From assembly GCF_000003815.2 (NCBI RefSeq), contig NC_049987.1:5388111-5452110 (forward strand): a DNA stretch of 64,000 bases, read 5' to 3'. Made by a program: the position numbers and the translations under genes. The DNA is from Branchiostoma floridae (Eukaryota; Chordata; Leptocardii; Amphioxiformes; Branchiostomatidae). Below the pieces are notes generated by a model. The model had not been told where the DNA came from. It ran no database searches and saw only the letters and a program-made list of their open reading frames with translations. Within the stretch, counting starts at the first letter, position 1; each line of letters opens with the position of its first letter. Shown piece by piece: positions 5,694-49,400 of the stretch.

Positions 5694-6496
5694 TTACACC
5701 GGGGTTGACACACCCCTTCCGAACTCCTCACGGTTTGAGCCCGACAGTCCAATCCTCGCCTCCTTAGAACTTGCTGCGGCGCACGAAGGCACATCTGTGG
5801 TGTAGTTGTTGCTAGTGTCGACGTGAAACGTCTTACACTGGACGAATGTACCGACGTTTAACGTGGCACCTTCCCCGCTCAAAGCCTGCATTTCTCTCCG
5901 CTTAGCTTCAGAATCGATCACAAACCACTTGGCACTTTCGTGACGGACGTTGTCCAACGTCTCGTAGGTGTTTTCCGGTGGCATGTCTGTCTGGGAAGAG
6001 GCCTCAGATGTTTCAACATGTACAGCATACACACGCCCGTAGGTAGGCTCAGGATGGGTATCCTGCTGTCTTGTCATGGTTCTTGTCATGGACCTATTGT
6101 CGGGCGGACCAGATCTTTCACGACTCCATCCAGCTTATCTTCTACTTCTTTTATTTTCTTCTTCTGTTGGCTCAGTTCTTTTCTCAGGCCTTCCACGTGC
6201 ACTTTCTGTTCCTTCAGTGCCTTCTTCAATTCTTTGTTTTCTTCCAGGAGTGCTTGGTTCTTTGACACCTCTGTCGCCTTTTCGTCTGCGATGATCTGGT
6301 TGTCTTTCATCCATTTCTCCTTCTCGGCTTCAAACTCTTCCATCACCGTCTGTTGACACAGATTCTGGTTTTTCAGAGCTACGCATTCATCAATTAGGTC
6401 TTTCACCGTCTTGGACTGCAGGTCATGTTCGTACTTGTCAAGCACGAGAGTGATTTTGTCGGAAGACGTCTTACTCAAATCCTCCGAACACTCCAT
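5694..6496 (-). pseudogene. Coiled-coil protein, paralogue A (frame-broken)
   Basis: Two minus-strand frames together encode a protein related to the gene at 23273-23959. The first frame (6496-6086, 136 residues) has the shared block KYEHDLQSKTVKDLIDEC, then a Glu/Lys-rich coiled coil at about residues 50-125. The second frame (6089-5694, 131 residues) carries RQQD, VYAV and NTYETL, matching RQQE, LYAL and NPYEEI in the paralogue. Homology continues on both sides of the ATGA overlap, so the break looks like a one-base loss beside a 12-nt tandem duplication (6070-6091) rather than an intron. An assembly error is equally possible. A short intron ending at the acceptor-like 'ctcttcccag' (exon from 5990) is less likely, because it would remove the conserved VYAV segment. 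A splice acceptor 'tttcactttag' lies 4 nt before the ATG, so a noncoding 5' exon is probable. Function is unknown; YETL has the form of an SH2- or adaptor-binding tyrosine motif. Confidence 0.65.
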
Positions 6497-6530
6497 AGTG
6501 CTAAAGTGAAATATGACACGTATATAATTC

Positions 6531-7873
6531 AGTGCTAGTGGTTGTACAAGTGAGGTGAGGTGAGGTTGTATACTGTGTTAAGTTTGCCTTGACAACTTGA
6601 TAGCCGGTAGCTGTTACAAGGAGCTAGACCTGCTAACTATGTATAACGTTATAGTACATATATAAAATGTGTGATCATTTAGACTATAGTATCTACAGTT
6701 TATCGTTACGCTATTCTGTGTAATGTAGAGGACACCCATCCCACCACCCACCAACCAACCGAAGTACAAAAAGATCAATGGTTTAACTGTCAATGGCAGT
6801 TTGTTCACCCACTGTATTACGGACTCAATCTTTTTTTTTTGTGAAATGAAAAGAAAGAATGTCACCTCTGATCTTTTGGATGAAGTTACGGCCAAGATAA
6901 ACATAGAGCGATAATACAAAAGGTAAACCGTTGTTTTGCCCCTTTGGATGGGCCATGGGCCTCTCTGATACGTTCGTCGCGATTACAATGTAGATCACTT
7001 TTTTACTAATAGTATATACTGTTGATCATCTTTCATTTTGTCCGTCACATTTTCATTTGAATCTGTTGCGTGTGAAATGATAAATTTTTTTTTCTTCATT
7101 CCACCAGGAGAGTGAAGCTTGCACACTGTGCAAATAATAGTGAAATTGATACCTGGGTGTGGTTTAAAAGGCCAATGGGGGTAAAATAAAATCTTTTATA
7201 ATTCCCCATCCTCCCTTTGATATTTAGAGCCATTTTTCTTCTTCCCGCAGAACATCACCCATAATTATGGCTTCATTATTGTAAATACAGTAATAAGCAT
7301 CAAATTACACCATGAGTATTAGCCACAAGACTTGTCACAGTGCACTAAAAGCAAACAAACATTTCCCAAAATCTTCAACAGTTTACAGGCATATTTGAAT
7401 TATACACAAAGCGTGCATTCCCTTATAACATCGTGTATCATGCAAGCAAATTTGATTTTAACAATGAATATTTGGTAATAGTCAGATATCTGCCATGCTA
7501 GATAGCCTTTTACAGTTATGACGCAGTGCGTTTCTGACAATGGCCACGCCCTAAGTACAACTCTGAACTTTTGGCACTTCTTTAGGCGCATCGAAAGTCA
7601 TGGCAACTGCCTACTTTATATATTATATACCATGTGTTCTATGGGTATTCATTTCATCAAAATATAACGGTGCAGAATACTTCATTTAGCAGCTTTGATC
7701 ACTTACCTCGGTACCAATAAAAATGCAGACCCAGCAATGGTTGTTTTAATGACCTAATAAGTTGCAATAGCGACTCTTGACGCCTAGGGGATTCCCCTTC
7801 GTAAAGTACTGCTGCCTAGGTAATCCATTAGGCTATTCATTGTGCAATCGATCTCTTTTGTTATTTCGCTGTA
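6531..7873. other. Intergenic upstream of paralogue A
   Basis: AT-rich sequence with poly(T) runs and no convincing gene. ORFs of 60-100 codons lack domains. The minus-strand promoter or 5' exon of paralogue A should lie here, but I cannot place it. Confidence 0.45.
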
Positions 7874-8790
7874 GGCCATGTTGATTTGATTATATGGATG
7901 ACATCCTCCGGGAACTCCAAAACTGATGCGAGCGAGCGAATAAAAAAAAAAGTTTGGCCAAAAAAAAGTTGCCTTCAGTATGAAATCAAAGTGGCCAGGA
8001 AGGTTGAACATAGGACTAAACACACATAGTATGGTATACCAACAGTTAGGTGTAGGGACCAGTACATCATACGGGTGCAAAACATTTTTTTTTCTTCTTG
8101 GACCAATCCGAAAAAAAACAGACCTGAAAAAAACAACAGAGGAACAGGTCTACTCCTAAAATAGGGGGGTTTGGGTAGGAGTGATCACATGGTTCACAGT
8201 GGGTTCATAACACACACTATGTCGGCAGCCATTTGGGGTCTAACCGGGGGGCCAAGAAGACAACAAGAGCGAAGTCAAGTAGAGTTTATAGTCAATTGCA
8301 CCAAGTTTTTACAGTCAAAGGTACAGAGACAGTTAGCTTATTACATGAAGATGGGATTTTAAAATGCAGTGGGAGTCCAATAATCCACCAAACAGATTCC
8401 TTTGTAGCAAAATTGACCAATTACCATTGTTTTGAGTATTGCCAGTTCTCAAGTTTCCACAGACAATCAGGTCCAGGTTCATGTCCGGACCTGGAATTGA
8501 TCCTCTGGACCTGAATTTTCTGTACTGGTACCTCCCCCAACCAACAATAGATTTTTTTTCTTTCTGTCCTTTCACATCTTATTCTTTGACTTTAGATTCA
8601 TTTTGGCATTCTATATATGGCATTAGTCATCTGTTTTCTGATACTTTTTTTTCAATGTACGGAATATTTGTGCTCATTTTACAGCTGCTTTGCACAATTT
8701 ATTGTGTGGTCGAAAACTTTTTTTTTTTGGGAAATGGCCGAAAATTGGTGCGAGCGAGGATGTCATCCATATAATCAAATCAACGTGGCC
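7874..8790. mobile_element. Harbinger-like MITE, GGCCA family copy 2 (long form)
   Basis: Inverted termini GGCCATGTTGATTTGATTAT and its complement at 8771-8790 match those of the 434-bp copy at 20652-21085 (one mismatch per arm). The flanks are GTA and TAA, so the TWA duplication is decayed. This copy carries about 470 extra bases (roughly 8150-8625) that copy 3 lacks. That segment is either a nested insertion or the fuller ancestral form. Subterminal 'gcgagcgag' repeats occur at both ends. Confidence 0.8.
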
Positions 8791-10087: not shown

Positions 10088-10369
10088 TCAGTGTACGTCT
10101 AGATCTTTGTACAATTCTTCCCATCGTCTTCTGTTTGCTGCTGTTTCCCTTAGATACCTTAACATGTGAGTCTCAAGTCTAATGTTCTGGTTGAGATGTA
10201 GCTTGCAGTCGTCTACCAGACTTCTGAGGAGGCCTTCACGTGGCCTTCCTAGCATTGGTTTGAGCTTCTTGCTGAACGCGACGTTGAGGACCTTTTGCGG
10301 CGGCGAGTCCAGTGGCATACGGAGAATGTGGCCGAAGAGGAACCATCTACGACGGTGCACTGCATTTTG
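10088..10369 (-). pseudogene. LINE-A 3' segment (reverse transcriptase C-terminus)
   Basis: The minus-strand frame reads HRRRWFLFGHILRMP followed by GRPREGLLRSLVDDC. This is the tail typical of endonuclease-reverse transcriptase LINE ORFs. It is the downstream continuation of the reverse transcriptase at 13395-12377; a plus-strand LINE has inserted between the two pieces. Joining the pieces leaves a one-base frame difference, so the element is dead. Confidence 0.85.
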
Positions 10370-10374
10370 TAATG

Positions 10375-12249
10375 GTGATACTTGGCACTTACTGTACAGC
10401 TTACTGTTATTTTCCCGACGATTGGTCCCTCAGCCATATCGTACCCATACATAAATCTGGCGATACCTCACTCCCTGATAACTACCGGGGAATATCAATC
10501 ATTAGTTGCTTAGGAAAATTATTCACCTCTATTTTAAACAATCGTCTTGTCAATTATGCAGAACAGTACAGCCTTTTCAAACCTCAACAGGCCGGTTTTA
10601 GGAAAAATTTTAGAACATCTGATAATTTGTTTGTGTTAACCACTTTAGTCAGCAAATACCTAAGCAAAAATGCCAAAATTTATGCATGTTTTGTAGATTT
10701 CAGCAAAGCTTTTGACTCCGTTTGGCGAGCAGGTCTATTTTTCAAACTTAACAACCTTGGAATAGGAGGAAAATTCTTAAAGACATTAAAAAACATGTAC
10801 TCAAAAACTACAAATTGCATTAAAACCAACGGCGGCCTTACAGCGCCTTTTTTAACTAACTGTGGGGTCAGACAAGGCTGTAATTTAAGTCCAACTTTGT
10901 TTAATTTATTTATTAGCGATATAACCTGTGAGTTTGATGATATTTGTTGCAACTCTCCTAGTTTACACAATAGGAAAGTACCGTGTCTTTTGTATGCAGA
11001 TGATCTTGTATTATTTTCCGAGTCTCAACAAGGCTTGCAATCATGTCTAGTTAGATTAGAAAGGTATTGTAAACATTGGAACCTGAAGGTGAATTTAAAA
11101 AAGACTAAGATTATTGTCTTCACCAAGGGAGGTAGATTACCAAAGAATTGTTTCTTTTTGTTTAATGGTAATGTAATCGAAATTGTTATGTCATATTGTT
11201 ATTTAGGTATAGTGGTAAGTACAGCTGGCACCTTCAAGGCCAACAACAAACATCTAAGAAACAAGGGTCTAAAAGCTTTGTTTAGTATCAGGCAATCACT
11301 TGACAAAGCCGATTGCCCACTAGCTGTTAAAAACAAGCTTTTCGACTCTTGTATTAAACCTATATTACTTTATGGGTCCGAAATATGGGGAACTCTCAAA
11401 AGTCCCAAAAATTGTCCCATTGAATCTGTACACCTAAAACATTGTAAATATTCACTCAATATCCCCAAAACAGCTAGTAATCTCGCAGCACAGGCAGAAC
11501 TAGGGAGGTACCCCATTCATCTGGAGGCCTCCCTAAATACCATCAAGTATTTCATTCGACTTAGCAAGAATGTGCCAGCTGACAGCCTTCAAGCAGATGC
11601 TCTCTTGTGCCAAATGGATTTAGAAGCATCAGGTGCTAAATGTTGGGCCTCTGATGTACGCAACACTCTAGAGAAATGTGGCTATGCTTTCGTCTGGCAA
11701 AACGCCCAGTCAACAATCTCAAGTACACCTCAAATTATTTCATCAATCTATCAACGTTTAAAAGATATTTATTTCCAGACCTTTCTATCTGAAATCCACA
11801 ACGATAAAAGAGTTGAGACTGCAAAAAACAAACTACGAACATACAGACTATTAAAACAATATTATAAACAAGAAGAATATCTGAAGATTGCCAATGTACG
11901 CCACAGATCTACCATCACAAAACTAAGAATCAGTTGCCACAAATTACGAATCGAATCAGGAAGACATAACCACACTCCTCTAGAGCAAAGAATATGCCAA
12001 TTTTGTAGTTTAGGGAAAGTAGAAGATGAAGTACATTTTACTATGGATTGTCCTTTGTATGATAGCGATAGGAACATTTTATTTGACTATGTGTTAAGTA
12101 AATATCCCTTCTTTAGACACTTGAACAGTAAAGAGAAATTTATATTCCTGACAGCTTTTGATAAACAAACTCTAACCAACCATACAGCTAGCTACATTTA
12201 TGCAATTACCAAGAAGCGAGAGGAAGTCGAATGTCATAGAATAGATTAG
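10375..12249 (+). CDS. LINE-B reverse transcriptase ORF
   Basis: About 620 uninterrupted codons; the open frame happens to extend upstream into LINE-A sequence. Reverse transcriptase motifs appear in order: PDNYRGISII, QAGFRK, FVDFSKAFDSVW, RQGCNLSPTLF, then the catalytic YADD (nt 10993-11004) in LLYADDLVLF. Past the thumb there is a C-x2-C-x9-H-x4-C cluster (CQFC to MDC), a zinc-binding feature common at LINE C-termini. The intact frame implies recent insertion, although 5' truncation makes the copy immobile by itself. I cannot assign the clade without a tree. Confidence 0.9.
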   Translation: MILGTYCTAYCYFPDDWSLSHIVPIHKSGDTSLPDNYRGISIISCLGKLFTSILNNRLVNYAEQYSLFKPQQAGFRKNFRTSDNLFVLTTLVSKYLSKNAKIYACFVDFSKAFDSVWRAGLFFKLNNLGIGGKFLKTLKNMYSKTTNCIKTNGGLTAPFLTNCGVRQGCNLSPTLFNLFISDITCEFDDICCNSPSLHNRKVPCLLYADDLVLFSESQQGLQSCLVRLERYCKHWNLKVNLKKTKIIVFTKGGRLPKNCFFLFNGNVIEIVMSYCYLGIVVSTAGTFKANNKHLRNKGLKALFSIRQSLDKADCPLAVKNKLFDSCIKPILLYGSEIWGTLKSPKNCPIESVHLKHCKYSLNIPKTASNLAAQAELGRYPIHLEASLNTIKYFIRLSKNVPADSLQADALLCQMDLEASGAKCWASDVRNTLEKCGYAFVWQNAQSTISSTPQIISSIYQRLKDIYFQTFLSEIHNDKRVETAKNKLRTYRLLKQYYKQEEYLKIANVRHRSTITKLRISCHKLRIESGRHNHTPLEQRICQFCSLGKVEDEVHFTMDCPLYDSDRNILFDYVLSKYPFFRHLNSKEKFIFLTAFDKQTLTNHTASYIYAITKKREEVECHRID

Positions 12250-12371
12250 ACGCACATCTGCATATATAAATGTGTATGATTGTTTCCATTGTTACATATA
12301 TGTGATTCTTACCGTGTGACCTGTACTTAGCCCAGTGGGGCAAAAATGTGCAATAAAGGTCTTCATTCAAC
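10375..12371 (+). mobile_element. LINE-B, 5'-truncated non-LTR retrotransposon
   Basis: This is a 2.0-kb insertion inside LINE-A. It lacks the endonuclease part and starts within the reverse transcriptase region. It ends with a 3' UTR containing 'caataaaggtcttcattcaac'. A candidate 5-bp target duplication TAATG flanks it (10370-10374 and 12372-12376). A second, more truncated copy of the same family lies on the minus strand at 33614-34046. Confidence 0.85.
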
Positions 12372-12376
12372 TAATG

Positions 12377-13440
12377 TGGTTGGGGTGGAAGTGACCTGTG
12401 AAACGTCGGAGTTGTTTTCGGTGCCATGTGTCGATCTTGTATGCCAACTGCTCGGTGAGTCCCCACGTCCCGGCATTATAAAGCATCACGGGTATAACAT
12501 ACACTTCAAAGAGTTTTAACTTAAGTTGTAACGATATGTGCTTTGTCCCCCACATTTTCCACATCTTTCTCATGGCCAAATTTGCTAGTTGTATTCTTTC
12601 TTCTATGTCCTCTGCGATGCCCAGTCTTGAGCCTACCGACTTGCTTTTTCTCCATTCCTCCTCTTCCCTGTCCTTCTCCAGACAGATGTGGACCCGCTCT
12701 GTCTTACTTGCATTGGCATGTAGTTTCCACTCTGGTAGGATCTTCAAGGCTTCCTCATGTATCTTTTCCAAATGGTGACTAGAAGTGCTGATGAAGTCTA
12801 AGTCATCGGCATACTGAGTTTCGGCTGGTATCTTGAGCCGCTTGTCTTGAGTAGGGATGGGTGGGGAGGATCTTCGCAGGTCTCGGAGGGCTGCTTCGTA
12901 ATAGACATTGAACAGCTGGGGGCTCAAGCTGTCACCCTGAGGCGAGCCCATGGTTGCTGGGAAGTGAGGGGCTGCTTCTCCCTGGACACGCACGGCAAGG
13001 CTTGTGTCTGATAACAAAGCCTGGATCATACGTACTGTGTCGTCGTCCTTCAGCACATCTCTCAACACCGATATCAGCCGAGCTCTATCCACGGTGTCAA
13101 AGGCACGGCTTAGATCGATGCCTAGGATGTGAGTGTCCCACATCTTTGTCATAACTAGGTCGGCGAGGATCCTCTTAGTGAAGACTATGTCAGCTGCGCT
13201 GTGGCCTTGACGGTAGGCTGACTGTGATCTTGGTAGGTAGAGGTTTACCTGTGGCTTGCAACGTTCTGACACGATGAGGGAGAAGAGCTTCCTCAGTCCG
13301 TTTAGCAGAACTATAGGTCGGAGACTGCTGCACAGACCACGCGGTTTCCCTGGCTTTTGGAGAGGGATAAGAATGCCTTGCCCTAGAGCAGGCATTAGCT
13401 CACCTTGTTTTTGTTAGTGCTTTGGAAATGTTTCCAGCAC
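12377..13440 (-). pseudogene. LINE-A reverse transcriptase segment
   Basis: An open minus-strand frame of 342 codons (13395-12367, the last few in LINE-B) contains GKPRGLCSSLRPIVLLNGL, SQSAYRQGHSAADI, LGIDLSRAFDTVDR, SPQGDSLSPQLFN and the catalytic QYADDLDF. Reading further upstream in the same frame meets a stop just before QKQGELMPALGQG, while related residues continue to about 13440. The element is therefore 5'-truncated and mutated. Downstream it is split by LINE-B, and its tail is at 10369-10088. The family is distinct from LINE-B. Confidence 0.88.
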
Positions 13441-15129: not shown

Positions 15130-16100
15130 AGTCCGGTAGCCCTTGTTTGTTAAAGAACGTAAACCCACCACGCCTTTCGAAAAAGAGTTGGGGCGTGCCC
15201 CGGTGTGCGATGGTGCAAAGTACTTATGTCTAGAGTTGGTGATTCACTAAAAAAATCACCCGGATGGAGGCCTGTTGAACCCCCGTCTTGTATCAGCCGT
15301 ACGATAATCTACACCATTCACTCAGACATGAGACCAGGCGCATCCCCGTCTTGTATCAGCCAAAAAAAGGGTACTAGTATATCACCCCGTAAGGCCTACA
15401 TGTCATATCCAAACCGGGGCCCGGCTGGGTAGCTTTCGGGAACGAAAAGTATCACGCAAATGACACTAAACTACACGTAAAGACGTAAAGAGAATAGTCG
15501 TGGGTATCATTTGTATGTATTTTTAAGTGTACATTTCTATTTTTCGTTCCCACAAATAGCCCCACCGGGTCCCGTTTTAAAATGTGGCCTTAGCCCAAGT
15601 TGAAATTAGAACACCAAACACGTTGCAGACTTATCATACTTTTATTTATGACTTCTATGAATTCATTTTTTGGATCTTATTGACAACTTAAGAACTGACA
15701 CCAACTTAACTGAGCTGAAGGAAATCAAGTCCATGGTGGATGGAGGATAGAGCAACGTGAAAGACGCTCTCAATTCTCAGAACTAAAAGCACAACAAGCT
15801 TAAGGCTGGACTCCAGGCTAGTTTTGAGCGGGATCTCTATCAAAGTAAAGTAAAGTAACGGTAACTTGTTTAGAAATTACTTTTTCAGTGCGCAAAGCAT
15901 CATGGGAACCTCGCGCTGTTCAAAAGTTGTTCCAGAACGTCACAAACATTACCGTGGAACGTCAACACTGTTTTAGCGACGTAAACAAGCCGCTAGCGAC
16001 TCATACAGATCGCGTACGCTTGTTCAACGCTTACCGAGAAATTATCTTCTAAAGAAATTTCTATACTTATACATTATAGAGAACGAAAATAATACCCAAC
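15130..16100. other. Intergenic upstream of the candidate MGC exon
   Basis: No ORF with a recognisable domain. From about 15880 the sequence becomes more CpG-containing (gcgcaaag, cctcgcgctg, gaacgtcac), which would suit a promoter for the exon at 16101, but no TATA box or initiator can be named with confidence. Confidence 0.35.
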
Positions 16101-16168
16101 ATGGGTTGTACGAACACAAAAGTTCATCCAGTGGATTTTAACCCGGTGCCTCAAGCCAAGGAGACCTG
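16101..16168 (+). CDS. Candidate first coding exon, MGC (myristoylation-type) start
   Basis: ATG in good context (ccaacATGGG) opens a 22-codon reading frame, MGCTNTKVHPVDF then NPVPQAKET. It ends at a strong donor (acctg|gtaagt) with two bases of the next codon. Gly2-Cys3 is the classical N-myristoylation plus palmitoylation start, so the product would sit on the inner face of membranes. The OTU-protease exon at 18632 lacks a start codon and is the nearest plus-strand coding exon. An acceptor-like AG before 18632 (or 18629, 18602) gives the matching phase and would read ...KETCVKTVTQS, in step with the 12-residue repeat there. An alternative acceptor at 18520 is stronger but leads to a stop at 18617 unless a further 33-nt exon with a tiny intron is assumed. 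The exon itself is moderately supported; its link to the OTU gene is inferred. Confidence 0.5.
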
Positions 16169-16475
16169 GTAAGTAACGTTGAATCCTATGTGAAAACATT
16201 ACTATAAAGTTTTCCAAAACGCTAGGTGTACACAACATTGCCAAGGTACTCTGAGTCTTTGATGAATTTGTGGTGTGAAATATGTAGACAGACGAAGGGT
16301 ATAGCTTCTTCATACATTGTATATAAAACTCATAGTGATGCATGGATAGTAGGGTTGTCTTTTTCGTGCGCAGCCTGAAGGGAAAAATCAACGTTTGGTC
16401 AGTTCCTCTGCTAAAGTTTCCTCTTTGCTGTCATGACAGCGAGAAGTAGAACCAGTCGCCCATTCCTTATCCCCC

Positions 16476-16665
16476 CCCCCTTTACAAATCAAGAATTTAG
16501 CTCGGCCGAGTTGTCAGCGAGCTCTAAATTACGAGGAGGTATATATGACCCTGATGCCGACGAAGAAACTCTGCCATTTGTTCGTAGGCATCAGAGTCAT
16601 GCCTCCTCGTAATTTAGAGCTCGCTGACAACTCGGCCGAGCTAAATTCTTGATTTGTAAAGGGGG
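16476..16665. mobile_element. Foldback MITE with 64-nt perfect arms
   Basis: The arms at 16476-16539 and 16602-16665 are exact reverse complements (cccccTTTACAAATCAAG inward to ACGAGGAGG), and pairing continues imperfectly into the 60-nt loop. The perfect arms imply a young or gene-converted element. It lies in the 2.4-kb interval between the MGC exon and the OTU exon. Confidence 0.88.
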
Positions 16666-17030
16666 CTTAGATGGACGCGTGTCACTTCTCAACAAACTAA
16701 CTTGGTATTCAGCAAAGTATTCATCGTCTGTAAACAAGTGCTTCCCAATCTTGTCTATCACTCAGAATTCATCATTACTAAGCATTTCAACTTCTTGAAA
16801 GTTATAAGTTTAACGTGTTGAATTTGACCGCCCTTGGCTTAAGGACTTACTGTAAGTGTTAGGCCTCCCATTGCAACATTTTTATAATGTATCATTTCCT
16901 TCATGCATATCAATTAAGTTGATCACATTTTGTTACAAGTACATGTATGGTCATCATCGTATTTCGTTAAAATTTTGTATTGATGTCTTTTGTATATATG
17001 TATAGTTGATATAAGTTTGACGCTGATATA

Positions 17031-18115
17031 ACGGGGGCCGCCCTAAGATGCCCCCCCCCCCTTTTTGCGCGCTCGAACTCACGGCGCTCCACCACTAGTT
17101 GCCAAAGAATGGTCAAGTTTTGATCAATGAATTTTTAACACATTCATTTACAGGCCACACTTGAATAACGAAGGCATCCATACTGTTCATGAACCCTTCA
17201 CCCTCCGCGTTACAACTGGAAAACACCGAGGACGTTATCGTGAATATAAATTCCGATTTTGAGCCGCGTTAAACAGTGCGTCCTAACTTGCCCCGCTTTT
17301 GGAATTTGCTCTCTTCGGAAGCTGGTGACCAATTGCAATTTAGACAAACATAAATAAAACTTCTAATTTTATGATATATTAGCTTTCTTTTGACAGTAGA
17401 ATTGTAATTGTGTGTGCTTCTTGTCTCCCGCGAGGAGGGCTAAATCATTCACAATCCAGGTCGTGTTTTCATGGGAAATGGGCGAAATGCACTGAATGCG
17501 GCGGCCCGACTAACAAAATCATTACGAAAAACGACAACACCAAAATCACAAAAAAAACTCTGTGTACGTATTGGGAAACATATTCGACATCACTCTGTCA
17601 AGTTTCATTTTTATAGACGTTACGAATCATTTTTAAAGTAACAAATCTTTTGGGCGTTCGCTCGTCTGTCACCTGCGGGGCCACGCTCCCTGGGGAAAAC
17701 AACGACGGTGATGCTTATGTTGTTTTTTTCTATGGCCGGTCTTCTACTCAACAAACATTTGAAGACCAATATTTGTAGTGTTTAGTGAAGCTTTGTTGCT
17801 TATGTGTATGACAGTTGTGTGGCTGTTTTTATTGGTTGTTTATCTATGGCCACGAGCCACCAATACCTAGTAACAGGTGACCACAGTGATTCGGCATTAC
17901 CAACATTATTGTGAAAATTATGTCTTCAAAAAAAAAGGGGATGTGAACATGTGTAAAAAAATCTTAATAGAAAAAATGCTGTTTGTTTAGACTTGGTTTA
18001 TTTACCTTTCTAATCATCATAGTCAGTGGCAACAAACACGGCGTACTTATGCATAATAAGATCAGCAAAAAATCTGGGCATCTTAGGACAGGGGGCATCT
18101 TAGGGCGGCCCCCGT
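17031..18115. mobile_element. Nonautonomous DNA transposon with 25-bp TIRs
   Basis: ACGGGGGCCGCCCTAAGATG plus CCCCC at 17031-17055 is exactly inverted at 18091-18115. A TA dinucleotide flanks both ends, so mariner-type TA target duplication is possible. A further 'gggcatcttagg' lies just inside the right end. The 1.1-kb interior has no transposase; short ORFs are unremarkable. Confidence 0.8.
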
Positions 18116-18630
18116 TAAGTTTGTCAATAAGAATGCGTCTGTAATCGTGGCCCTCCAACTTGAATAAAAAAAGACAGCAAATAACTATACAGAACCGTTT
18201 GTAGTAAATTTATGTTGGTCATATACATGTATAATAACTCTGATATTCGCTGCTTCGCCAACCTTTAAAACTACTATTTACGGTCGTGATTATACGTGTA
18301 TATATGGAAAGAAATCGTTCAATAGCCCCATCCTAATGTTACGGTCACGTTTCCACACAGGGGCTTACTTTTCTGCGATTCTGTTTTCGTCTTCTGTGTT
18401 TCATTCATATACCTTTATACCGTTGACAAGATTCACCTCTGTCTTTTTTCAATCATGTGTTAAATCTACTTAATATCCGAATAGATTCATGAGGTTAGGA
18501 TATTCTTCTGTGAATGCAGGTTCGAAAGGAAGGTCAAGAGACGCGCGGGGAAGGTGAAACTTACTCAAGTGCCTTCATCGAGACTCGAATTCGAAGACCA
18601 GGAAGATTGCGTGGCCTGAGCAGCCCAGCA

Positions 18631-18923
18631 GTGTGAAGACCGTGACACAAAGCAACGAGGACGCAGTCTCAGTGAAGACGGCACAAAACAACGAGGACGC
18701 AGTCTCAGTGAAGACCACACAAAACAACGAGGAAGTATTCTCAGTGAGGACCACACAGAACAACGAGGACGCACTCTCAGTGAAGACCACACAAAGCAAC
18801 AAGGACGCAGTCTCAGTGAAGACCACACAAAACAACGAGGACGCAGTCTCAGTGAAGACCACACAAAGCAACGAGGACGCACTCTCAGTGAAGACCACAC
18901 AGAGCAACGAGGACGCACTCTCA
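18631..18923 (+). repeat. 36-bp coding minisatellite (about 8 units)
   Basis: Units of 36 bp (gaagaccacacaaagcaacg + aggacgcactctcagt) encode 12 residues each. Substitutions between units are mostly conservative (Asn/Ser, Val/Leu), consistent with a maintained reading frame. Confidence 0.92.
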
Positions 18924-19799
18924 GGAGATAGCAGCTTTTCTGATGACGTCTCGGATGTCTCTACATTGACAACAGAGTCTGAGACTGAGAGCAGCTCGTC
19001 ATCCGGATCCTTCAAATTGACAACAGAGTCTGACACTGAGAGCAGCTCGTCATCCGGATCCTTCGAATTGACAACAGAGTCTGACACTGAGAGCAGCTCG
19101 TCATCCGGATCCTTCAAATTGACAACAGAGTCTGACACTGAGAGCAGCTCGTCATCCGGATCCTTCGAATTGACAACAGAGTCTGACACTGAGAGCAGCT
19201 CGTCATCCGGATCCTTCGAATTGACAACAGAGTCTGACACTGAGAGCAGCTCGTCATCCGGATCCTTCGAATCAGCCATCGACCTCCCCGTTTCCCCGCC
19301 CAAACCATCACGCGGGCAGACGACACCCGTCCCGAAGACACGAGAAGACATCCTCCTCAAGAACATCGCAAGAGCAGGCTTCCAGATCGACCCAGTGGCA
19401 CGGGATGGGGATTGTTTCTTCCGTTCAGCCGCCAGACAACTCGGCAGAGGAGACCCCAGTATTGACACCACCCCCCAACAGCTACGTAAGGACCTAGTCC
19501 ACCATATCAGGGCTCACAGTGAGAAGTTCTGCGTCGCAGTACCGGGCGGTTTCTGGGCGTTCCAGCAGGAGCTGGACAAGCTGGCAAGGCGGGGCCACTG
19601 GTGCTCGGATCTAGCTGACGTCCTTCCGATCGCTTTGGCGGACTTCACCGCAAGAGAGGTCAATTTGATCACCAGCACCGAGATGGAGATCATGACCCTG
19701 CCGCCAGAGGGCGAGGAGTCAGGCACACCACTGGTGTTATCGTACCTGGCTACCCCGGGCGGAGAGCACTACGATGCCGTCAAGTTCGTGGGAGGCTGA
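18632..19799 (+). CDS. OTU-domain cysteine protease with two tandem repeat arrays (5' exon missing)
   Basis: A 388-codon frame has no ATG before residue 340, and an in-frame stop lies at 18555, so translation must enter from an upstream exon (see 16101-16168). Residues 1-98 are about eight copies of a 12-residue unit (NEDAVSVKTTQS). After a short Ser/Asp linker come six 17-residue units rich in Ser and acidic residues (LTTESDTESSSSSGSFE), then a Pro-rich linker, then an OTU fold from about residue 235. The catalytic signature DGDCFFRS places Asp258 and the nucleophile Cys261, and GGEHYDAV places the general base His379; the spacing fits OTU deubiquitinases. The likely activity is cleavage of ubiquitin or ubiquitin-like chains. 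The acidic Ser repeats look like CK2-type phosphorylation substrates. OTU domains also occur in transposons, but no transposon hallmark adjoins this one. The repeat region is open in all frames, so the long minus-strand ORFs here are shadows. Confidence 0.8.
18966..19271 (+). repeat. 51-bp coding minisatellite (6 units)
   Basis: Six units of exactly 51 bp begin ttgacaacagagtctgacac and encode 17 residues. Units differ mainly at the last codon (Lys or Glu) and at one Glu/Asp in unit 1, which implies very recent expansion or homogenisation. Confidence 0.95.
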
Positions 19800-20450: not shown

Positions 20451-20651
20451 CGTGACAAGTTAAAACCCACGAAGTCCAATGCCAGAGTCCCTGAAAAAGC
20501 GGGAAATGGCGTTCCAAAGGGTCCAGATTTCAAAATTTCCCGGTCTTCCGGCCTTCGGCACTGGACATGGTAGAAATATGTCGCGGAAGCGTCACCCTCG
20601 AAAACCTTTTCACTCATATATCATACAGATTTCAGTGTCAAATTTAGCTTA

Positions 20652-21085
20652 GGCCATGTTGATTTGATTATATGGATGACATCCTCTGGGAGCTCCAAAA
20701 CTGATGCAAGCGAGCGAATAAAAGTTTGGCCAAAAAAAAAGTTGCCTTCAATATGAAATCAATGTGGCCAGGAAGGAAACATAGGACTACAAACACATAG
20801 TATGGTATACCAACAGTTAGGTGTAGGGACCAGTACATCATACGGGTGAAAACATTTTTTTCTTCTTGGACCAATCCGACAAAAACAGACCTGAAAAAAA
20901 ATCAGACGAACAGGTTTAGTTATCTGTTTTCTGATACTTTTTTTTCAATCTACGGAATATATGTGCTCATTTTACAGCTGCTTTGCACAATTTACTGTGT
21001 GGTCCAAAACTTTTGTTTTGTTTTGGAAATGGCCGAAAATTGGTGCGAGCGCGGATGTCATCCATATAATCAAATCAACATGGCC
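20652..21085. mobile_element. Harbinger-like MITE, GGCCA family copy 3
   Basis: The termini GGCCATGTTGATTTGATTAT and their perfect complement carry exact TTA flanks (20649-20651 and 21086-21088). At 434 bp it shares both ends and interior blocks with copy 2 at 7874 but lacks that copy's central 470 bp. Confidence 0.88.
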
Positions 21086-21088
21086 TTA

Positions 21089-23272: not shown

Positions 23273-23959
23273 TTAAACCATGACTTCTCCGTTTGATGAT
23301 ACCGGCTCACTTTCTTCACTGGATGTGGGTAGCGAATCAGTCGCCTGGATAGGCGCTTTGAGGATCTCGTCATGCAGTGGGGGATGAGCAGGGCCGTTGC
23401 CATGTGGCGGAGGTCCTGGCTGTATCTCTTCGTACGGGTTTTCGTCGGCACGCAAGGCGTACAGATTCTCACGACGCTGGAGCTCTTGCTGGCGCTTTAA
23501 GATACCAAGAATAGGCTGAAACATGCCTTCTTGCGCGTCTTGAACCTGTTTCTTGCACGCCTCCAATTCTTGCTTGACTGTGTCGGCGTCTTTCTTGCGA
23601 TCGCGGCCGATGCTCCTTATTTCCTCTTGGAGCTTTATCTTATCCTCTTCAAGCTTTCTAACCCTTTCAGCGAGGTAGTTCTGCTCTCGTTCTTGTATTT
23701 TACGCGCCAGTTCTTCATTCGTTGTGACTAACTCCCTATTCCTAGCAACCAACTCTTCATTTTCCTTCACGACCTCTTCTACCTGAAGTCCTTGCACGAG
23801 AGCTTCCAAGCAGACATTATGGGTCTTGAGGGCTATGCATTCATCGATGAGATGTTGGCGAGTTTTGTCCTGCAGATCATCTTCGTACTTCTGCAAGATG
23901 TCGGTTGAGACAGGAGGATCTGTGCACTCCTTGGGTGTTTTGGTCAGGGAACTGGCCAT
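23273..23959 (-). CDS. Coiled-coil protein, paralogue B (intact)
   Basis: A single coding exon gives 228 residues from an ATG in strong context (gcagccATGGcc). A consensus splice acceptor (tttattgtttcag) lies 20 nt upstream, so a noncoding first exon is expected. A matching donor (ctttcag|gtacgt) is at 24540. Residues 22-48 hold the family block KYEDDLQDKTRQHLIDEC and following; residues about 60-145 are a Glu/Lys/Arg heptad-type coiled coil; the C-terminus is Pro/Ser/Glu-rich. Tyr176 sits in NPYEEI, which matches the classical Src-family SH2 ligand pattern pYEEI; the frame-broken relative at 5694-6496 has NTYETL at the same place. No membrane segment or signal peptide is present, so the product is probably a cytosolic scaffold. 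I do not recognise the family by name. Confidence 0.75.
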   Translation of the reverse strand: MASSLTKTPKECTDPPVSTDILQKYEDDLQDKTRQHLIDECIALKTHNVCLEALVQGLQVEEVVKENEELVARNRELVTTNEELARKIQEREQNYLAERVRKLEEDKIKLQEEIRSIGRDRKKDADTVKQELEACKKQVQDAQEGMFQPILGILKRQQELQRRENLYALRADENPYEEIQPGPPPHGNGPAHPPLHDEILKAPIQATDSLPTSSEESEPVSSNGEVMV

Positions 23960-24148
23960 GGCTGCGCACAAAATATCCTGAAACAATAAACATCTAGTCT
24001 ACCACAGCCAGAAATTTCTTCTACATTAACATTGTTCTTATCTTCTTCTTGGTATCTTGGTTTATTCTATTGTCACTACTGTCCAAATTGGCTATCGCAA
24101 GTTATAATTAATTGTCTAGTTCAAAAGTTCAGTTGCTGTTCCTCTTTT

Positions 24149-46400: not shown

Positions 46401-49400
46401 TACAAAATGTACAAGGAAGCCATTCCTTCGTTGGCTCGTTTAATACATCTTTAAGAACTTAAGCAAATTCATAAAACAGGAGGAAATCATGACTACCGGT
46501 TTATTCACTACGGAACAGACCATATATATCTTCAGACTCTGTTTCTATTTACAGGTTTGCGGTAGCAAAACCTGTTCTGTTTTCGTTGGCTTTTATGGGC
46601 GCCGCCATTTTGTTTTTCGGTGTATGACGGGAAGGGTGGCGCTGGCGCCATTTGGATATGACGGATTGGTGTGTTGTATGAAGTTATGAGATGACTAGGA
46701 AACGTGATCTTGTGGTCTCATCGGAAACGACAGGACGGCAAGAGCCACAAGCATGAAGGCTTAGTGTGTTGTATGAAGGAATTGGATGGTTAGGAAACGT
46801 GATCTTGTGGTCTTGTCGGAAACGGCAGGACGGCAAGAGCCACAAGCATGAAGGGTTAGTGTGTTGTATGAAGGGATTGGATGAGATGGTTAGGAAATAT
46901 GATCTTGTACTCTTGTCGGAAGCGGCAGGACGGCAAGAGACACAAGCATGAAGGGTTAGTGTGTTGTATGAAGGGATGGGATGGGATGGTTAGGAAATAT
47001 GATCTTGTACTCTTGTCGGAAGCGGCAGGACGGCAAGAGACACAAGCATGAAGGGTTAGTGTGTTGTATGAAGGGATTGAATGGGATGGTTAGGAAAAAT
47101 GATCTTGTACTCTCGTCGGAAGCGGCAGGACGGCAAGAGCCACAAGCATGAAGGGTTAGTTTGTTGTATGAGGGGATTGAATGGGATGGTTAGGAAATAT
47201 GATCTTGTACTCTTGTCGGAAACGGCAGGACGGCAAGAGCCACAAGCATGAAGGGTTAGTGTGTTGTAAAGTTAAGAAAGTTACGACGAGATCCCCAACG
47301 ATAGAGGCTTAGACATGTAACAAATATATACAGGTTCCTTTAGTTGCCAACTGGAATTCGAAGATCAGCACATGAAGGATAAAGAAATGACAATGAAGAG
47401 ACAAGAATTTCCGCACGCTGGGTACAGAAGACTTTTAACAATATAATAGACTTCATAATAATGCTATCTCTCTTTGGCCTTAACTGAAGTTCTCTATTGC
47501 CTCTCCTGAACTGAACTCTCTTACCTTAGAAATCTCTTGTATTAACATTCTGTCTCAGTACTAGACAAATGTCTGCTCTCCTGAACGGCCGTAGAAATCT
47601 CTCGTCTTTGTATTCTGTCTTACCTGACAGACAGCTACACAATATCGCTCATATTACTAGACTAAGTACATCTCGGTCTGTTGTAGTTCACGTCATCAAA
47701 CGAATAACCGTTCAAGAATAACAATCATAGTACAATACTACAGACTAATTACATCTAGCAAACGTTGCGTTGTATCTTCTTGTAAGTGACGGAGTGAAAG
47801 GCTGCTACAGCCCAAAAGTAAACGGCTGCTACAACCCAAAAGTAAACGGCTGCACGGACGTGTATTTTTATCGTTAAGAAACTCCCGCAAACGTTAGATT
47901 GGTAAAAGTTCGTTTGTAACTCAAGACATTTGCAGGCAATGTTCGAATTATGTAAATGACATGCTAGAAACAGCATGTTGACTTATTCATATCTGTAAAT
48001 ATGCATATACGTCTGCTTAGCTGTACTGTAAATAGTTGTTATAATCCTCACGAAAGTCGCTGTACTTTTGTCGTGTCAATAAAGTTTTCATATACGTTTG
48101 GTTAGGATGTCCACCATTCGTATATCCATCGTTGTCTAGGTGAATTGAATTATTTTTTTACAATACTAAATATGACCTAATAGAATAGACAACACGTATT
48201 CGTATAAGTCAAATAACGCAGATAGCACGTGTACGTCAGTCCATGAATTCTCTAACTGCACTCAGTTTTTCCCTCAAAAGCAGCGCAATCGGTTGGCCGC
48301 CCGCGGCTCTGCTGCCGGTCTGGCATTTCCCTCTCATGGCCTTGCTCCTTCGGGCGACGTTGTTTCGGGTTTTGCATATGGCTCTCAGCCTCGATCCCCT
48401 TGTAGCAATTTGCACACGGATGTCCTTCCCTTCAGTGATACAGCTCGTCTTTCAGTGAAAGCCACCGACGTCCCTTGAATTCGTGTGGATCTCATTTGCC
48501 CGACCTGTGCAAAAATCAGAGACCCACACATATTAACCTGTACCTGAACCCTTTAGCCCGACGAAATATTGAAAATATTTGAAAATGTTGATTCGTTTTT
48601 GAATAAGAATAATAAAAGTGATAAGAAATAGAATAAGAAGTCCATGATGATGAGATGTTTCCTTTCCACTGCAAGTATTATAGTACTTCTTTTGATCTTG
48701 TTTATCTTTATGATGAGCCCCTGCAACAACAATGCCAAAAAGGACAGGTCAATTGCAGTATGAATGTCAAAAATCCCAAACTAGCAATTAAATCAAGTTC
48801 ATAATCTAACTATACCTGGCTCTGACCAAAGAACGCGATCCATTATTCTAAGATCCTCTTGACTATGCAGAAGTAAGCTGAGTTACTTACCGAAGTGCAG
48901 GTGAGTGCGTTGACTTCGTGGGGTCAGTCGTAATTAATCATCAGAGACCAGTCTCAGACACGTGTTGTCTCCCCTCTGTCTGGCAGCGAAATGACTGCTG
49001 TGTTCGTAATCAGCTTGGTTTACGTTTCATCTGCATTGCGCAATATGAATACTAGGCAGCCCATTGGCCAGCGACCATGGGTTATTCCATAGCGGAAAAG
49101 GGGGAGCTAGGAGAGAGGAGAAAAGTATTAAACAACCGACCAACATGTAAAAAAAAATCACACCAAACTTGAAAGCTTGGACATGTTCTCCAAACATTCC
49201 ATTGGTCGTGGCGGGGACTGCGGGCATGCTATATTAAAGCCACAACGACATACTAGTATCATGTGTAAAACACACGTAGAAAGAACACCCTAACGTTAGT
49301 AGATATAGCCATTACATAGTCGCACTGACAAAGACTTGCACAATTCCATGAAACCCCGACTGTTGTTGTTGTTGTGCCTTGACTGATTGATATGCCTGGT

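Follow-up and report, generated by a model that had tools for sequence, protein, structure and literature searches.

The window, a 64,000-nucleotide stretch of Branchiostoma floridae DNA, carries on its forward strand a short exon beginning with an MGC start and, further downstream, an open frame that encodes an OTU (deubiquitinase-type) domain. Exon 1 (16101 to 16168) opens with an ATG at 16101, is preceded by an in-frame stop at 16077 and encodes MGCTNTKVHPVDFNPVPQAKET plus 2 bases (phase 2), its product beginning MGCTNTK, a candidate N-acylation signal. Its donor, CTG/GTAAGT at 16169, ranked in the top 0.12% of the 4079 GTs in the window when scored by weight matrix, in agreement with the original prediction of an MGC exon followed by a strong donor.

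The rest of exon 2 (18558 to 19799, forward strand) is an open stretch of 413 codons. No Met precedes the OTU domain in this frame, the first one falling inside the domain, so the statement that the OTU exon has no start codon was upheld, as was the presence of two tandem arrays. The first of these, a 36-bp (12-residue) array at 18645 to 18924 with 7.8 copies, varies in copy number among the paralogs on contig C9; the second, a 51-bp (17-residue) Ser/acidic array at 18965 to 19272 with 6.0 copies, is repeated only in some C9 copies. DUF7486 was also considered over the 12-residue array (19.5 bits, cut-off 27), and this match was ascribed to composition. The OTU domain (19341 to 19796; Cys codon at 19413–19415, His at 19767–19769, Asp at 19773–19775) was recognised in a Pfam scan by PF02338 at E 3.6e-6 and 27.9 bits, above the curated cut-off of 23.3 and as predicted, and is the only Pfam domain above cut-off in the 413-codon frame. 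A single-sequence AlphaFold model of the window OTU stretch alone gave a mean pLDDT of 38.6, too low for use.

The two exons had been proposed to join across 2.46 kb, a spacing that implies an acceptor at 18632. By weight matrix this acceptor is weak, with 29% of the 3691 AGs in the window reaching its score, as is the alternative at 18629 (34%), and 18520 scores highest among the acceptors nearby (top 3.3%). The window acceptor ATGCAG/GTTCGA aligns with the CAG/G of nine related loci at 18520 rather than 18632, and the junction must be moved accordingly. A literal join of 16168 to 18632 (or 18629), giving an acylated OTU protein of 411 or 412 aa, would be in phase, free of internal stops and able to skip a 5-nt gap described below; given the weakness of both acceptors, the retention of 18520 in nine loci and the fact that the 18629 region is coding sequence within exon 2 of L016 and L018–L020, it is quite improbable. 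The residue called Cys261 is Cys284 of that joined product, 261 having been counted from the Val codon at 18633. With the acceptor at 18520, the intron (16169 to 18519) measures 2351 nt in the window copy, and exon 2 begins in the MGC frame with 18520 to 18553, encoding the basic stretch FERKVKRRAGK; the predicted product thereby gains basic sequence and a conserved Cys that a junction at 18632 would omit.

To place the locus among its relatives, the genome from which the window comes (513,431,437 bases in 431 contigs) was searched with the window OTU domain, which matched at least 15 places at E <= 0.01, a count that is a lower bound. Nine of these lie on C9, comprising the window, five places at 88–93% identity and three at 64–70%; elsewhere, C7 and C4 have two each and C5 and C6 one each. 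When 9 kb of sequence surrounding each of the 14 further places was examined, the number of loci with an upstream MGC exon came to 12 of 15, and across the C9 paralogs the DNA of the MGC exon region, including the donor, is conserved. Ten of the 15 loci (L016 and L018–L026) are intact two-exon genes without internal stops, whose joined proteins measure 251–577 residues. All ten have phase-2 donors, introns of 533–2002 nt and CAG/G acceptors (TGCAG in nine, AGCAG in L019), the donor of L023 (GTAGGC) being weaker. The claim that MGC exon, repeats and OTU domain make up one acylated protein therefore holds in part: both exons lie in one frame at ten of 15 loci, but the acceptor is 18520, the two arrays occur in some C9 copies only and the window copy is frame-shifted. 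Taken together, the MGC–OTU locus in the window is one copy of a putative family of two-exon MGC–OTU genes.

The remaining loci are less complete. In L017 the OTU exon is intact and Arg replaces the conserved Cys; the family MGC exon was not found within about 24 kb upstream, where two unrelated MGC starts were seen. In L027 the scan showed no good donor for the MGC exon, and the OTU domain is missing its Cys half; L028 and L029 are fragments. When nine of the 14 relatives were scanned with PF02338, seven passed, L018 fell below the cut-off (20.6) and L027 had no match. A search with the L020 N-terminus gave matches at 15 places, none outside the C9 cluster, and 14 of them belong to known members; since this query missed the C4 and C7 members, MGC exons elsewhere may be overlooked. 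The extra place, outside the known members, is a further MGC-type exon near L016 (G000:C9:4792845–4792928, minus strand; 73% identity, E 1.9e-4) to which no OTU exon was assigned. A search of viral contigs gave nine pattern matches, none confirmed by tblastn, with a single-sequence query that reaches only close relatives. It was also noted that three head-to-head pairs on C9 (L022/L016, L020/L023 and L019/L024) each combine one member that has a long linker with one that has a short linker, with start codons about 2.7–3.7 kb apart. No head-to-head partner was found in the window by tblastn with ten paralog proteins, nor in the adjacent 9 kb for L018.

All ten intact members have the same domain order, namely an MGCxx[S/T]K start, a basic stretch that closes with a conserved Cys, then an acidic linker and the OTU domain. 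The starts found were MGCTNTK, MGCKLSK, MGCMNSK and MGCNWSK; G2, C3, [S/T]6 and K7 are unchanged in all ten, and positions 4–5 differ. Each of the ten matches a PROSITE-like N-myristoylation pattern (Met-Gly start, a permitted residue at position 3 and an S/T-type residue at position 6), and the reading of the MGC start as a candidate myristoylation signal depends on this motif. The first 43–46 residues carry a net charge of +4 to +11 and end their basic stretch in a Cys common to all ten, and the linker, of 69–381 residues, carries −5 to −55. Linker repeats were judged by eye: the long C9 copies have 12-residue units with 17- or 19-residue units, the C7 members 29-residue units, the C4 members 19-residue units and L022–L024 none. 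The two arrays of the window copy occur in some C9 copies only, and other members have other repeats or none. The pair of arrays is, on these sequences, not a family trait, since the units differ between subfamilies and three members lack any.

The enzyme domain is more uniform. Twelve OTU sequences were aligned (the ten intact members, L017 and the window), and the Cys (in DG[DN]C or NGDC) and the HYD motif are invariant in all 12; we take these residues to supply the catalytic Cys, His and acidic partner. A profile built from eight of the 12 matched the solved sequences of OTUD3 (4bou) at E 6.6e-6, OTUD1 at 9e-4 and OTUD5 at 0.006, the other matches among ten solved sequences at E <= 1 being three viral polymerase OTU domains and three that are likely chance. 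By sequence, the domain belongs to the OTU cysteine proteases, stands nearest to OTUD3 and OTUD1 and is a predicted deubiquitinase.

Simple Nei–Gojobori pairs were used to compare substitution rates. After pairs with saturated dS were dropped (11 of 66 for the OTU domain and 22 of 45 for the N-terminus), dN/dS was 0.04–0.53 in the 55 of 66 OTU pairs with computable dS and 0.08–0.59 in 23 of 45 N-terminal pairs, many of the dS values being large or saturated. Both the OTU domain and the N-terminus look constrained, that is, under apparent purifying selection, with the reservation that many pairs have large dS. For the window copy, OTU dN/dS was 0.25 against L016 and 0.23 against L017. In the tree, the window copy is placed beside L016 (92/97), L022–L024 form a group (95/91) and the C4 pair forms another (100/100).

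The window copy itself has both exons and both splice sites, yet is excluded from the intact genes by a 5-nt gap relative to L017–L020 (18554 to 18560, just after the GTG at 18554–18556), which breaks the frame. As a result, the acceptor at 18520 cannot lead into the OTU frame in this copy, and when 16168 is spliced to 18520 the MGC frame ends at the TGA at 18617–18619, after 55 residues in total. The private changes in the window OTU exon number 3 synonymous and 1 non-synonymous over 178 codons, so the exon is not decayed, and the gap has the look of a recent event, a polymorphism or a fault of the assembly. One version of this holds that the window locus makes a normal protein, the gap having arisen in assembly or belonging to a single allele of a polymorphic site; it draws on the same private changes and on the OTU frame remaining open for 413 codons; a recent real deletion accounts for the gap equally well, and we regard this version as possible though clearly short of an even chance. 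It overlaps with our preferred explanation, which is compatible with any of these causes of the gap. A rescue of the window copy by a second short intron, with an exon from 18520 to 18553, a donor at 18554 (AAG/GTGAAA) and an acceptor at 18624, would yield 425 aa in the OTU frame. The frame through this junction is open, the donor is fair (rank 99 of 4079 GTs) and the undecayed OTU exon also counts for it, but the acceptor is weak (29% of AGs are as good), the intron would measure 70 nt and the matching donor-like site sits inside the coding exon of L017–L020, which leaves such a rescue improbable. Because the window copy is frame-shifted, a protein product of its own is doubtful; the assembled sequence, read through the conserved splice, would encode no more than a basic peptide of 55 residues, unless the OTU frame is reached by cryptic splicing or supplied by a different allele.

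Upstream of exon 1 lies a conserved block (15895 to 15983), a candidate promoter that contains TTCCAGAACGTCAC and, on the minus strand, a STAF/ZNF143-like site. Across 11 aligned rows (ten paralogs and the window), the block reaches 26 invariant columns out of 40 at 15930–15969, whereas no 40 columns around exon 1 include more than 15. The published consensus for the STAF/ZNF143 site (SBS; PMC5006282) is matched with two or fewer mismatches in nine of the 11 rows and with none in the two C4 rows, L018 and L024 missing with 3 mismatches each. Among 308 overlapping stretches of the window, 4 match, some of which may contain the window's own site. As the 11 rows are related, the nine matches are not nine independent events; the block and the motif match favour a working promoter, which is here a candidate only.

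Mobile elements are present nearby, and the OTU exon could in principle be a transposon remnant. Two reverse-transcriptase frames (RVT_1 by Pfam; 10288–12249 on the plus strand and 12367–13413 on the minus strand, hence in opposite directions) occupy 10288–13413, 2.7–5.8 kb upstream of exon 1. Genome-wide, PF02338 has 90 matches at E <= 0.01, of which nine are MGC–OTU family members and 12 sit in open frames of 2178–3953 aa that look like mobile elements, and mobile elements of the Ginger1 and Helitron types are described as carrying OTU domains (PMC2836005). None of the 12 long-frame matches, however, is among the 15 family places, none of which lies in an open frame longer than 567 aa. The family members agree in exon structure, have the upstream block in common and show purifying selection; the Pfam scan placed no transposon domain in the OTU exon and neither transposase nor reverse transcriptase above cut-off in the 413-codon frame; and the sole lancelet Ginger1 listed in PMC2836005 is without an OTU domain. 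A transposon origin of the exon is therefore very improbable indeed, and we rejected it. The PF02338 model misses 6 of the 15 family places, including the intact L018–L020. Clusters of PF02338 matches were also observed at C9 21.35–21.58 Mb and C10 16.9–17.05 Mb.

Within the intron, a 1.09-kb element (17029 to 18117) has 27-nt perfect terminal inverted repeats and a TA target. Its empty site is present in four paralogs, L017–L020, which makes it a young insertion in the intron of the window copy. The intron also contains a near-perfect hairpin (16476–16665; 67-nt arms, 99% complementary), part of which (16513–16628) matches L016 and L022 at other positions. Elsewhere in the window, two minus-strand frames (6086–6577 and 23273–23998) look related by eye (KYE.DLQ.KT..LIDEC.ALK) and coiled-coil-like, with no Pfam family above cut-off in either. 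A 34-nt perfect inverted repeat flanks 368 nt at 20651–21086, with a similar translated stretch at 7784–8149, and a tandem repeat of 100 bp in 6.2 copies (91% matches) lies at 46658–47268.

We consider it probable (roughly 0.78) that the locus belongs to an MGC–OTU two-exon family of predicted acylated, membrane-tethered OTU proteases with a variable linker, of which the window holds a gapped copy. Gene structure, conservation, purifying selection and the gap are established from sequence. If the genes are transcribed and spliced as predicted, the MGC start would fit N-myristoylation at Gly2 and palmitoylation at Cys3, and the acylated basic N-terminus would tether the protein to the cytosolic face of a membrane. 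The acidic, low-complexity and presumably disordered linker could then allow the OTU domain to reach and trim ubiquitin on membrane-proximal proteins, and linker length and repeats would drift as selection preserves anchor and enzyme. More tentatively, and at somewhat less than even odds, the family may be specific to its lineage and still expanding, its members being OTU deubiquitinases that are tethered to membranes by dual acylation, with anchor and enzyme conserved and an acidic linker that has repeatedly been rebuilt from unrelated tandem repeats, its length tuning reach. Deubiquitinases are more commonly brought to membranes by partner proteins or by helices that span the membrane; this OTU family seems to come with a lipid anchor of its own, and evolution appears to swap the linker freely. 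If true, OTU enzymes would here be positioned at membranes in a new way, with innate immune signalling as one possible setting. Because the ten intact paralogs form a natural series of linker lengths (69–381 residues) with related anchors and enzymes, an effect of tether length is directly testable.

Among known proteins, OTUD3, OTUD1 and OTUD5 resemble the family by sequence in the OTU domain, with the Cys and His-Tyr-Asp aligning with those of OTUD3; the alignment is confined to that domain, and none of the three is known to have an MGC start with a repeat linker. The MGC-start kinases of the Src family are dually acylated membrane proteins, alike in their MGCxx[S/T]K-like start and different in a catalytic domain that is a kinase rather than of deubiquitinase type. 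The Ginger1 and Helitron OTU domains have PF02338 in common with the family, which differs from these elements (PMC2836005) in having two exons, an MGC start and no transposase partner. No paper on an acylated OTU family was found in the open-licence PMC literature, an absence that is weak evidence, and a survey of 14 animal genomes including B. floridae names no such family in the parts consulted (PMC4774998). The nearest published case found is that of Arabidopsis OTU11 and OTU12 (PMC9653390), OTU deubiquitinases whose retention at the plasma membrane is due to polybasic motifs within the OTU domain. OTU12 also has Gly2, but that paper considers myristoylation unlikely to determine where the protein resides; in the MGC–OTU proteins, by contrast, the basic stretch is N-terminal and lies beside a conserved MGC start.
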